This document shows positions 17,619-54,718 of a stretch of DNA of 56,208 nt, piece after piece (within the stretch, counting starts at the first letter, position 1; every line of letters begins with the position of its first letter). The stretch is from Tannerella sp. (GTDB lineage Bacteria; Bacteroidota; Bacteroidia; Bacteroidales; Tannerellaceae): positions 1-56,208 of the forward strand of contig JAISXP010000090.1 of assembly GCA_031270465.1 (NCBI GenBank), read 5' to 3'. Below the pieces are notes generated by a model. It saw nothing but the letters and a program-made list of their open reading frames with translations, was not told the DNA's origin and did not search any database. The position numbers and the translations under genes are program-made.

Positions 17619-17626
17619 CAAAGTTA
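17619..17626 (-). promoter_or_regulatory. -7 box for gcvH-purE-ispG
   Basis: TAACTTTG on the minus strand, 50 nt upstream of gcvH, matches TAnnTTTG. It overlaps the rpoN stop codon. Confidence 0.55.
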
Positions 17627-19078
17627 TAATACTTTTCTGAGCCGTGCAACCGGAATGCCCATTTGTTCGCGATATTTGGCTACTGTGCGCCGTGCAATGA
17701 TGTATCCTTTTTCTTTCAACATGGCCGAAAGGACATCGTCGGTGAGGGGAGAGTGTTTGTCTTCCAAATCGATAAATTCTTTCATTATTTGTTTCACTTC
17801 GCGTGTGGAGATTTCTTCGCCACTTTCGTTTTGCGTCGATTCGGAGAAGAAGAATTTCAGGGGAAAGATGCCGAAGTTTGTTTGGACGTACTTGCTGTTG
17901 CTCACGCGCGAGATGGTGGAGATGTCGTATCCGGTATGCTTTGCCACGTCTTTGAGAATCATCGGGTGCAGGCGCGATTCGTCGCCGGTGAGGAAGAAAT
18001 CTTTTTGGAGCATGATAATGGCCTGCATGGTGCGCTGCAATGTTTCCTGCCGTTGCTTGACGGAATCGATAAACCACCTGGCGGATTCGAGTTTCTGTTT
18101 GACGAACTGTATGGCTTCGCGCATCTCGGCGGTGCGATTGGCTTTGTTTTTCGCATAATCGCTGACCATGTTCAGGTATTCGCGGCTGATGTGCATGTCG
18201 GGGATGCCGCGCTGGTTCATGATGAGCGTCAGGTCGTCGTTGTTGGTTTCCACGATGAAGTCGGGCATTATCTGCACGGTCGTGTCGGAAATGTTTGCCA
18301 TACTGTTGCCCGGTTTGGGGTTCAGTGCCGTGATTTCGTGAAGAATTTGTCTCATTTCATTTTCGTCGATGTTCAGACCTCTCCTGATTTTGTCAAAATG
18401 CTTCTTTGCGAATGCGTCGAAATGATCCTTCACTACGGTGATGGCCAGTTGGGTGCAGGACGTTTGCCGTTTTTTCTCCAGTTGCAGCAGCAAACATTCC
18501 TGCAGGTTGCGTGCACCTGTGCCTGCGGGGTCGAAGTCCTGAATGACGGTGAGTACGGACTGTACGTCGGCATCGGATACCTCTTCTCCGGCCTTGAAAA
18601 TCAAGTCGTCCGTGATAGATGTCAAGCTGCGTCGCAGGTAGCCGTTGTCGTCGATGTTTCCGACGATATATTCGCCGATTTTCTTCTCGCGTTCCGACAG
18701 ATTGCGCAGTCCGAGCTGTTCGAGCAAATAATCCTGCAGGGAAATCCCGCCCGAAAAGGGAATGTCTTCGCGACGGTCTTCCCGTTCGTGCATCTCGGCC
18801 AGTTTGTAGTAGGGAATATCGTCTTCCGTCATGTAGTCGCCAAGCGACAAATCCACTTCACTGTCTTCCACATAGCTGTTTTCGTCATCGCCCGGATCGT
18901 CTGCCTCGCTGCGTTCCGAAAGAAAATCGCTTCCTTCCTCCAGCACGGGATTTTCTTCCAGTTCCTGTTTGACGCGGTCTTCCATCTCGATGGCAGGAAG
19001 TTCAAGTAAACGAACGAATTGTATCTGCTGAGGCGAGAGCCGCAACTGTATTTTCTGCTGTAATTTTTGTTTAAACAT
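17624..19078 (-). CDS. rpoN: RNA polymerase sigma-54 factor
   Basis: Sigma-54 of 484 aa. Region I is the Gln/Leu-rich start KQKLQQKIQLRLSPQQIQFVRLLELP, followed by an acidic region II (residues about 50-90). The core-binding and DNA-binding parts follow, with the C-terminal RpoN box ARRTVAKYREQMGIPVARLRKV. It directs transcription from -24/-12 promoters with an activator ATPase; no such activator gene is in the window. A candidate target promoter precedes groES at 31.97 kb. It has its own -7 box upstream. Confidence 0.98.
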   Translation of the reverse strand: MFKQKLQQKIQLRLSPQQIQFVRLLELPAIEMEDRVKQELEENPVLEEGSDFLSERSEADDPGDDENSYVEDSEVDLSLGDYMTEDDIPYYKLAEMHEREDRREDIPFSGGISLQDYLLEQLGLRNLSEREKKIGEYIVGNIDDNGYLRRSLTSITDDLIFKAGEEVSDADVQSVLTVIQDFDPAGTGARNLQECLLLQLEKKRQTSCTQLAITVVKDHFDAFAKKHFDKIRRGLNIDENEMRQILHEITALNPKPGNSMANISDTTVQIMPDFIVETNNDDLTLIMNQRGIPDMHISREYLNMVSDYAKNKANRTAEMREAIQFVKQKLESARWFIDSVKQRQETLQRTMQAIIMLQKDFFLTGDESRLHPMILKDVAKHTGYDISTISRVSNSKYVQTNFGIFPLKFFFSESTQNESGEEISTREVKQIMKEFIDLEDKHSPLTDDVLSAMLKEKGYIIARRTVAKYREQMGIPVARLRKVL

Positions 19079-31738: not shown

Positions 31739-31894
31739 ATACACCACTTTTTTCATACACAATTCCATAATTAAAATACAAAGCGCGGCAATTTACAAAA
31801 AATGTCGCTTCCACGAGCGAAAGCAGTCGAAAAAAATTTATTTCCCCAATCTTGAATCCTGAATTTCGAATTTCGAATCCTTTCCCCTTTGCCA
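31739..31894. other. Intergenic stretch between nfeD and the groESL regulatory region
   Basis: AT-rich, with small direct repeats (GAATTTCGAATTTCGAATCC around 31861). No gene or hairpin that I can support. Confidence 0.5.
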
Positions 31895-31968
31895 AAATGT
31901 CAGTCCTTCCGTCAGATTTTTTTTCATCGTCGCGAAATAATGTCAGTCCTGTTTCCGCAGAATTTTTT
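31895..31968 (+). promoter_or_regulatory. Two imperfect repeats upstream of the groES sigma-54-type promoter
   Basis: AATGTCAGTCC occurs at about 31896-31906 and again at 31939-31949, each followed by a TTCCG-T/-CAGA segment and a run of T. The two copies are 43 nt apart (four helical turns). They look like paired binding sites for an activator acting on the -24/-12 promoter just downstream. Confidence 0.6.
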
Positions 31969-31983
31969 TGGCACGAAATTCGC
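31968..31983 (+). promoter_or_regulatory. Sigma-54-type promoter of groESL
   Basis: TTGGCACGAAATTCGC has the -24 GG (31970-31971) and the -12 GC (31982-31983) separated by exactly 10 bp, and TTGGCACG is the perfect -24 half. Transcription would begin near 31995, with about a 78-nt leader. No CIRCE element is present. A weak TAAATTTC at 31998-32005 could be an alternative -7 box. Confidence 0.68.
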
Positions 31984-32072
31984 AGTATACTGGTGTGTAA
32001 ATTTCAAAATCGAATATAAAAACATTAACAGCTTAACAACATTAGTAGTAACATTATTAAATTGATAGAAAG

Positions 32073-32342
32073 ATGAAGATTAAACCGTTAGCAGACAGAG
32101 TGCTGGTAAAACCGGCCACTGCAGAAGAGAAGACATCAGGCGGAATTATTATTCCGGATTCGGCTAAGGAAAAGCCGCTGAAAGGAGAAGTTGTTGCCAC
32201 AGGTAACGGAACCAAAGACGAAGAAATGGTCGTGAAAAGTGGCGACAAAGTGCTTTACGGCAAATATGCCGGTACCGAAATCGAGTGGGAAGACGAAACG
32301 TATCTAATCATGCGCCAGTCCGACATTTTAGCGATTATTTAA
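32073..32342 (+). CDS. groES: Co-chaperonin GroES
   Basis: Ring-forming lid of the GroEL chaperonin, 89 aa. It begins [21 protein letters not shown] with the mobile loop [15 protein letters not shown], and [19 protein letters not shown] is the conserved roof/base segment. Its stop is 39 nt before groEL. A sigma-54-type promoter and repeat pair lie upstream instead of CIRCE. Confidence 0.98.
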
Positions 32343-32366: not shown

Positions 32367-34019
<1,653 letters not shown>

Positions 34020-38055: not shown

Positions 38056-38990
38056 TTTCTCGCTTTTGTTATTCGTTCCTTACCGGACAGGTCGCGAATG
38101 GATTCGACGTCGCGATATCCTTTTTCGCACAACATCTTGACGACGGCGTCACCGCAGGCCTCATTGATTTCAAAGAAAAGCCATCCGCCCGGCGTCAATT
38201 TTTCTATTCCGGCCGACGCTATCCACCGGTAAAACAGCAGCGGATCGTCGTCCGGCACAAACAGAGCCTCATGCGGCTCAAAGTTCAGCACATTGGCACA
38301 CATTCCGCTCTTTTCACATTCGCGCACATATGGCGGGTTACTGACAATCACATCGAGCGGCGGAAGCGACGACGGCATTTCCCGCAGGATATCCGTCTGC
38401 ACAAAATGGATGGCAACGTCGTGACGATGCGCATTGCGTCCTGCCGTCTCCAGTGCATTGCCGGAGATGTCGATCGCATGAACCTCCGCGCCTTTCAGGT
38501 GACGCGCCAGCGCAATGGCGATGCAGCCGCTGCCCGTCCCGACGTCCAGAATCTTCAATCCTTTACCCGTTGCGCTTTGCGTGGAATGGCTGTGTAGACT
38601 GGCACGCGGTTCGCTCCTGTCAAGATAGCCCGAATCGTCCGAGTTTGAATTTTCATCCTGTGTGCAGCTTAACGTGCGAATGATGAACTCGACGAGTTCT
38701 TCCGTTTCGGGACGCGGAATCAGGACGGACGGATTCACCTCGAGCGCGAGACCGTAAAATTCGGTTTCGCCTAAAACATACTGAAAAGGTTCCGCCTTTT
38801 CGAGACGCTGCACGATTGTACGGATGCGTTCCCTTTCCGTTCGCGAGAAATGTTTATCTTTGCACAGCAATTGTTGATGAAGCGGCGTCAGGCACGCATG
38901 TTCTACAATCCGGCGGACAAGGCTGTTGATTTCTTCCGCAGGATACAGATCTCCGAGTGCTTTGCGTATGTATGTAACCGTTTCGTTCAT
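38052..38990 (-). CDS. prmC: Peptide chain release factor N5-glutamine methyltransferase
   Basis: Methylates the GGQ glutamine of RF1/RF2. It is 312 aa, with an N-terminal helical domain and a Rossmann methyltransferase: LIPRPETEELV, ILDVGTGSGCIAIALA and the catalytic NPPYV. The middle has an extra ~25-residue polar insert (TLSCTQDENSNSDDSGYLD), an oddity of this copy. It is the first gene of its operon, with a TATCTTTG box just upstream, divergent from ribD. Confidence 0.96.
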   Translation of the reverse strand: MNETVTYIRKALGDLYPAEEINSLVRRIVEHACLTPLHQQLLCKDKHFSRTERERIRTIVQRLEKAEPFQYVLGETEFYGLALEVNPSVLIPRPETEELVEFIIRTLSCTQDENSNSDDSGYLDRSEPRASLHSHSTQSATGKGLKILDVGTGSGCIAIALARHLKGAEVHAIDISGNALETAGRNAHRHDVAIHFVQTDILREMPSSLPPLDVIVSNPPYVRECEKSGMCANVLNFEPHEALFVPDDDPLLFYRWIASAGIEKLTPGGWLFFEINEACGDAVVKMLCEKGYRDVESIRDLSGKERITKARK

Positions 38991-42373: not shown

Positions 42374-43114
42374 ATGTCATTGGTAGAAAAAATAGACAGA
42401 CAGCGGTTGCCTCAACACGTGGCAATCATCATGGATGGGAACGGACGCTGGGCTAAAATGCGTGGCTACAGTCGCAATACGGGTCACAGCGAAGGCGTTA
42501 TATCCGTACGCAAAGTAGTTGAGGCGGCAACGGCTATCGGATTGAAGTATCTCACCGTCTACACGTTTTCGATGGAAAACTGGAGCCGGCCTGATACGGA
42601 AGTGCAGGCGTTGATGAGCCTGTTGATTTCTGCCGTCCACCGCGAGACGCCCGACCTGATGAAAAACAATATCCGTTTGCGCGTCATCGGTAACTTGTCA
42701 CGCCTGCAAGATTCGGTGCAACAGACCTTGACGGAATGTGTCCGCCAGACGTCCGCAAATACGGGCACTACGCTGGTGCTGGCATTGAGCTATTCCGCGC
42801 GGTGGGAACTGGTGCACGCTGCCGGACAACTTGCTGCTGACGTGGCGGAAAAGAAAATCGCTCTGAATGACATCACGGAAGAGAGTTTTTCGCAATACCT
42901 GTCCACGTACGGATTGCCCGATCCCGACCTGCTGATACGCACCGGCGGGGAAAAACGCATCAGTAATTTCCTGTTGTGGCAACTCTCGTATGCCGAACTT
43001 TATTTTACGGATACATTCTGGCCCGATTTCAGGGAAAACGAATTATATGAAGCGATCTTGTGTTACCAGCAGCGCGAACGCCGTTTCGGTAAGACGAGTG
43101 AACAGTTAAATTGA
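42374..43114 (+). CDS. uppS: Isoprenyl transferase (undecaprenyl diphosphate synthase)
   Basis: cis-Prenyltransferase of 246 aa making the C55 lipid carrier for peptidoglycan and LPS. The catalytic Asp is in IIMDGNGRWAKMRG, and other signatures are YTFSMENWSRP and IRTGGEKRISNFLLWQ. Its stop lies 11 nt before the bamA ATG, linking lipid-carrier supply with outer-membrane assembly. Confidence 0.97.
   Translation: MSLVEKIDRQRLPQHVAIIMDGNGRWAKMRGYSRNTGHSEGVISVRKVVEAATAIGLKYLTVYTFSMENWSRPDTEVQALMSLLISAVHRETPDLMKNNIRLRVIGNLSRLQDSVQQTLTECVRQTSANTGTTLVLALSYSARWELVHAAGQLAADVAEKKIALNDITEESFSQYLSTYGLPDPDLLIRTGGEKRISNFLLWQLSYAELYFTDTFWPDFRENELYEAILCYQQRERRFGKTSEQLN

Positions 43115-54400: not shown

Positions 54401-54718
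<318 letters not shown>

Follow-up and report, generated by a model that had tools for sequence, protein, structure and literature searches.

A conserved sigma-54-type promoter with helically phased upstream boxes at groESL of a gut Bacteroidota bacterium, and a candidate receiver-less activator

Introduction

Chaperone control in Bacteroidota, a dominant gut phylum, operates without the textbook heat-shock systems and is poorly understood. One of the closest described cases is Flavobacterium psychrophilum, in which mapping of transcription starts placed sigma-54 (SM4) promoters at groESL, dnaK, grpE-dnaJ, htpG, lon, clpB and skp (PMC9723704). Three enhancer-binding proteins (EBPs) were noted in that organism and the activator of the chaperone promoters was left open; the main text identifies neither enhancer boxes nor an activator for the chaperone group (PMC9723704). 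In the passages found of an in silico survey, sigma-54 promoters are enriched at GroES, GroEL, DnaK, GrpE and DnaJ genes in Bacteroidota, including Bacteroidia, and GroES of B. thetaiotaomicron is stated to be sigma-54 dependent; these passages give neither an enhancer motif nor an activator (PMC12316311). The corresponding passages of a B. thetaiotaomicron transcriptome study describe two motifs, one of them housekeeping, and do not mention RpoN (PMC7366714).

Here we analyse groESL of a gut Bacteroidota bacterium in a window, that is, the whole stretch of 56,208 nucleotides examined; it corresponds to contig C51 in an assembly totalling 3.03 Mb. A previous sequence-only reading had proposed that the operon is controlled by RpoN together with an unknown activator ATPase. 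The promoter, its boxes and their phasing, the shared regulon and the gene linkage described below were established computationally.

The groESL promoter region

The groES and groEL genes (Table 1) lie opposite an nfeD-type gene, and both the promoter element and the upstream repeats fall in the intervening region. In a profile search with PF00118, this groEL was the sole Cpn60 match in the genome. Sigma-54 is encoded in the genome, its gene lying within the window itself, as the sequence-only reading had stated. That reading was also right about CIRCE: the window has no such site at three or fewer mismatches, and the best candidate upstream of groES is mismatched at 7 of 18 positions. By the definition of an inverted repeat before groES, the operon thus does not belong to an HrcA/CIRCE regulon.

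Table 1. Coordinates of the features of the groESL region and of rpoN in the window
Feature	Position	Strand	Remarks
rpoN (sigma-54)	17624..19078	-	484 aa; TIGR02395 433 bits; RpoN box ARRTVAKYRE
Distal activator dyad GCCAAAATGTCAG (GNCA-N3-TGNCAG; predicted)	31891..31903	+	overlaps first AATGTCAGTCC copy (31896-31906)
Extra partial box CGTCAG after distal dyad	31910..31915	+	similar in nearest relatives (L024-L028); weak evidence
Proximal activator site GAAATAATGTCAG (predicted)	31934..31946	+	one good half-site; overlaps second AATGTCAGTCC copy (31939-31949)
Sigma-54 -24/-12 element TTGGCACGAAATTCGCA	31968..31984	+	strict family pattern in 87/90 groES upstream regions, shuffles 0.04
Predicted transcription start	31995	+	12 nt past C of -12; inferred from usual sigma-54 spacing
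groES	32073..32342	+	89 aa; PF00166; NCBIfam co-chaperone GroES
groEL	32382..34019	+	545 aa; TIGR02348 851 bits; single PF00118 match

The promoter element contains TTGGCACGAAATTCGC (31968-31983), which differs from YTGGCACGNNNNTTGCW at one position. Exactly 10 bases separate its GG (31970-31971) from its GC (31982-31983), the spacing already noted from the letters, and over its full length the element has one mismatch to the pattern YTGGCACR-N4-TTGCW. Seven matches with two or fewer mismatches occur in the window against 5.0 expected; a lone match of this grade is insignificant there and not decisive, and conservation among relatives was therefore tested.

Two other sites in the window were considered and set aside. 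The sequence CTGGCACGCGGTTCGCT at 38599-38615 has one mismatch to the sigma-54 consensus and no dyad box nearby, and is probably a chance occurrence. The near-consensus site at 54462 lacks a dyad in the combined model and belongs to a repeated leader: at 54462-54520, and likewise at L010 (C15) and L056 (C65), a -24/-12-like TGGCACGATATTTGC or TTGGCATGATTTTTGCA runs directly into a long GA dinucleotide tract (39-64 nt), and the genes downstream are related repeat genes or a SusC-type gene. These tracts are possibly slippery, phase-variable leaders.

The window contains exactly two mismatch-free copies of AATGTCAGTCC, both upstream of the groES element and separated by 43 nt. The repeats had been placed 20-75 nt upstream; their upstream location stands, and the distance is corrected to about 18-72 nt from the -24 element. 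Each copy overlaps a TGNCAG box, which is one half of a dyad of the form GNCA-N3-TGNCA(G). A -24/-12 element combined with a dyad box has a single occurrence in the window, compared with 0.05 in shuffles.

Conservation and helical phasing

Conservation was assessed in 90 groES upstream regions from genomes of the family, with dinucleotide shuffles as control. The strict pattern, TTGGCAY-N4-TTNGYW, was the one retained almost throughout (Table 1). The same regions carry 181 TGNCAG boxes versus 12 in the shuffles, and the dyad GNCA-N3-TGNCAG is found in 62 of the 90 versus 0.14. The sequence-only reading had named absence of the pattern from relatives as grounds for rejecting it; the pattern is present. 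In other families of the class, many groES upstream regions also have a TGNCAG box just before a TGGCA element, often at 17 nt.

Counted from the first T of TTGG, the boxes of the family peak at -26/-27 (61 boxes) and at -67 to -70 (48 boxes); minor peaks occur at -16, -36 to -38 and -57/-59. In the window, the TGTCAG of the proximal site has position -27 and that of the distal dyad position -70 relative to the -24 element, compared with family modes of -26/-27 and -69, so that the 43-nt spacing of the repeats is the family norm and amounts to four helical turns. The boxes share one face of the helix (phasing 10.7 bp, R=0.81, n=172), and the phase is unchanged when the two main peaks are set aside (61 boxes, R=0.59). 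Classical sigma-54 enhancers lie farther from the -24 element than these boxes do, which counts against the mechanism proposed below.

A small group of chaperone genes

A scan of the genome for the combined site had been suggested from the sequence alone, and it did reach other chaperone genes. The scan covered 1.155 of the 3.03 Mb, the contigs with htpG, clpB and dnaK having been deliberately included in the sample. The strict textbook pattern TGGCACNNNNNTNGC was uninformative in the genome (9 matches versus 25 in the reversed control) and was rejected. The combined model, consisting of the dyad and a -24/-12 element whose -24 half had been loosened to admit htpG and clpB after both had been seen, gave three matches: groES, htpG and clpB. 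Five shuffled copies of the same 1.155 Mb gave 1-3 matches each, none with a perfect dyad; the informative part of the scan is that it found nothing beyond these three genes. At htpG, CTGGCATTTTTTTTGCA is accompanied by two perfect dyads, GACAAAGTGTCA and GACAAAATGTCAG; at clpB, TTGGCGTTGATTTTGTA occurs with GCCAAAATGTCA.

In 12 genomes of the family, the box plus -24/-12 pattern gave 17 matches, against 1 in total in the reversed control: 11 at groES (10 genomes), 2 at htpG, 2 at dnaK and 2 within genes. In the genome of the window, dnaK has a -24-like element with a poor -12 and no dyad, which counts against the mechanism proposed below, and clpC has a -24-like element only. No combined site was found at the skp-like genes of the window, the gene in BamA position at 43111, rpoN or nfeD. 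The upstream region of the candidate activator gene described below likewise has none, so that autoregulation of this EBP and of RpoN is unsupported here.

Two further sigma-54-like promoters in the genome, at C110:2936 (L057) and on the minus strand at C175:31971 (L059), have the palindrome TTGGACACTACTGTCCAA in common and precede genes for an FtsX-type permease and a TolC-like protein, respectively. The common palindrome makes a second sigma-54 activator with an enhancer of its own likely. A separate observation concerns a cluster at C171:25000-31544 (L343, L308, L309), in which a Clp-like ATPase (open frame of 1154 aa) has as neighbours two Hsp70-like proteins of unusual length (open frames of 865 and 918 aa).

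A candidate activator

Two genuine EBPs were found in the genome of the window: a receiver-less protein on contig C156 and an NtrC-type response regulator on contig C41. The former (405 aa, L020:6150-7367) consists of a PF00158 domain, an AAA lid and a Fis-type helix-turn-helix (HTH_8), with the Walker A and B motifs GESGAGKE and GGTIFLDE and the loop GSFTGA, and thus has every part expected of an EBP (PF00158, Walker A/B, a GAFTGA-type loop and an HTH). Its gene heads an operon-like cluster whose further members are, in order, lptE, a TPR-like gene and secG; the nearest named relatives of the gene are in Tannerella sp. assemblies, and no curated equivalog model names the protein. Among some 60 EBPs, conservation is good over the AAA+ domain and the HTH but not over the N-terminus. 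The linker (residues about 272-357) is variable apart from a motif after the AAA+ lid, EREILY-LFDMK-D---LKKL, which is conserved class-wide and could be a partner-binding site.

An orthologue of this EBP is present in 138 of 140 genomes, namely 78 of 80 in the family (at least 70% identity) and 60 of 60 in the class (56-74%). None was found in G056 and G114, both fragmented family assemblies, and this counts against the protein as activator; G114 keeps the groES site although the orthologue was not found there. Coordinates were compared by hand in the 55 class genomes with both places listed. In 40 of them the EBP gene shares its strand with groES and lies 2-4 kb upstream of it; the TPR-like and SecG genes stand between the two in many of the linked genomes. 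In the family of the window, the EBP operon is not beside groESL, a further point against the assignment. In G039, the receiver-less EBP is the only EBP match, and the groES and dnaK sites are kept; with a completeness of 88%, however, this assembly could lack a second EBP that the organism has. Gene linkage, near universality and the genome with a single EBP make the receiver-less protein the leading candidate for the groESL activator. The "unknown" activator of the sequence-only reading can be replaced by this proposal, which draws on the class-wide linkage to groESL.

Discussion

Conservation, spacing, phasing with the helix and recurrence before further chaperone genes lend strong support to control of groESL by sigma-54 through the paired upstream site, which we regard as almost certain and which agrees with the RpoN control first proposed. 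RNA polymerase with sigma-54 would transcribe groESL from the -24/-12 element, starting near 31995. Two EBP dimers would occupy the distal and proximal sites, which are separated by four turns of the helix, lie on one DNA face and are immediately upstream of the bound polymerase, and the EBP would spend ATP to open the groES promoter. The activator would most likely be the receiver-less, PspF-like EBP encoded by the first gene of the EBP-lptE-TPR-secG operon. This EBP would act on htpG and clpB as well, and in relatives also on dnaK, and these genes would form a small protein-folding regulon. As the EBP lacks a sensor domain, control of its activity probably comes from a partner protein or from the quantity of the EBP itself. 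We give the whole of this reading, from sigma-54 and the two EBP dimers to the receiver-less EBP and the shared folding regulon, a probability of about 0.8. Within it, we infer both the binding of the EBP to the boxes and heat as the trigger.

The promoter may answer a condition other than heat shock as such, for instance envelope stress, general stress or growth on surfaces, an alternative that we hold to be possible but doubtful and that is compatible with the mechanism proposed above. In F. psychrophilum, sigma-54 promoters were induced on blood agar and somewhat by osmotic pressure, plasma and freshwater (PMC9723704), responses which suggest that the signal may be general protein or envelope stress; the clustering of the EBP gene with lptE and secG points the same way. 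However, the targets identified here, groES, htpG and clpB, are classical cytoplasmic chaperone genes.

It is unlikely that the sigma-54 promoter is real and served by another EBP, for example the response regulator on C41. No true EBP besides this regulator and the receiver-less protein was found in the genome; the regulator has an HTH_8 domain and is adjoined by a histidine kinase. However, EBPs other than the receiver-less one vary in number (1 to 18 EBP matches per genome), whereas the groES site is near universal, and G039 shows the receiver-less EBP only. Moreover, the palindrome at the C110 and C175 promoters would suit a second activator such as the C41 regulator.

We find it very improbable that the TGNCAG boxes are repressor operators, with a housekeeping promoter doing most of the work. 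The box position at -16, near the polymerase, would fit a repressor, but phasing of the boxes with the -24 element extends across several turns, as expected for an activator. A housekeeping promoter TTG/TAnnTTTG is not conserved, being present upstream of groES at chance level (1 of 90 regions versus 1.4 expected from shuffles). Chance resemblance, conceivable as long as a -24/-12 match of such grade is expected in a window of this size, is refuted by the retention of the element with fixed spacing in 87 of 90 genomes.

Still more speculatively, a single receiver-less EBP might be the heat-shock master activator of all Bacteroidia, acting via CTGACA-N3-TGTCAG enhancers and kept in check by a chaperone or a secretion component until misfolded proteins titrate that component away; we regard this extension as tentative and on balance improbable. 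If true, it would add a third type of bacterial chaperone control beside sigma-32 and HrcA. With an enhancer motif of fixed geometry and a single candidate activator gene, the question of chaperone control becomes directly testable.

The circuit is known in kind. Sigma-54 promoters are predicted in the genome of the window at groESL, htpG and clpB, which are among the genes with mapped ones in F. psychrophilum, and in F. psychrophilum an EBP-lptE operon begins 3.3 kb from the mapped groES sigma-54 start (PMC9723704). Unlike in that organism, the EBP operon is here detached from groESL and the skp-like genes of the window lack the site. The phased dyad enhancer and the assignment of an activator appear to be new relative to the literature searched, in which no paper naming the activator was found (subscription journals were mostly outside its scope).

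PspF resembles the candidate EBP in combining an AAA+ domain with a Fis-type HTH and no receiver, and solved PspF structures match EBP residues 24-253. The candidate nevertheless falls outside the PspF family, scoring 268 bits against TIGR02974, below the equivalog cut-off of 443.55; it also differs in its inferred chaperone targets and in a longer linker before the HTH. The sigma-32 and HrcA/CIRCE systems overlap with the present one in target genes (groESL, htpG, clpB, dnaK). The sequence-only reading had called the circuit unlike either of them, and as proposed it differs from both, although the mapping in F. psychrophilum (PMC9723704) and the survey prediction (PMC12316311) mean that it is not unprecedented. 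In comparison with these two paradigms, groESL of the window would depend on another sigma factor and on activation instead of repression, and it has no CIRCE.
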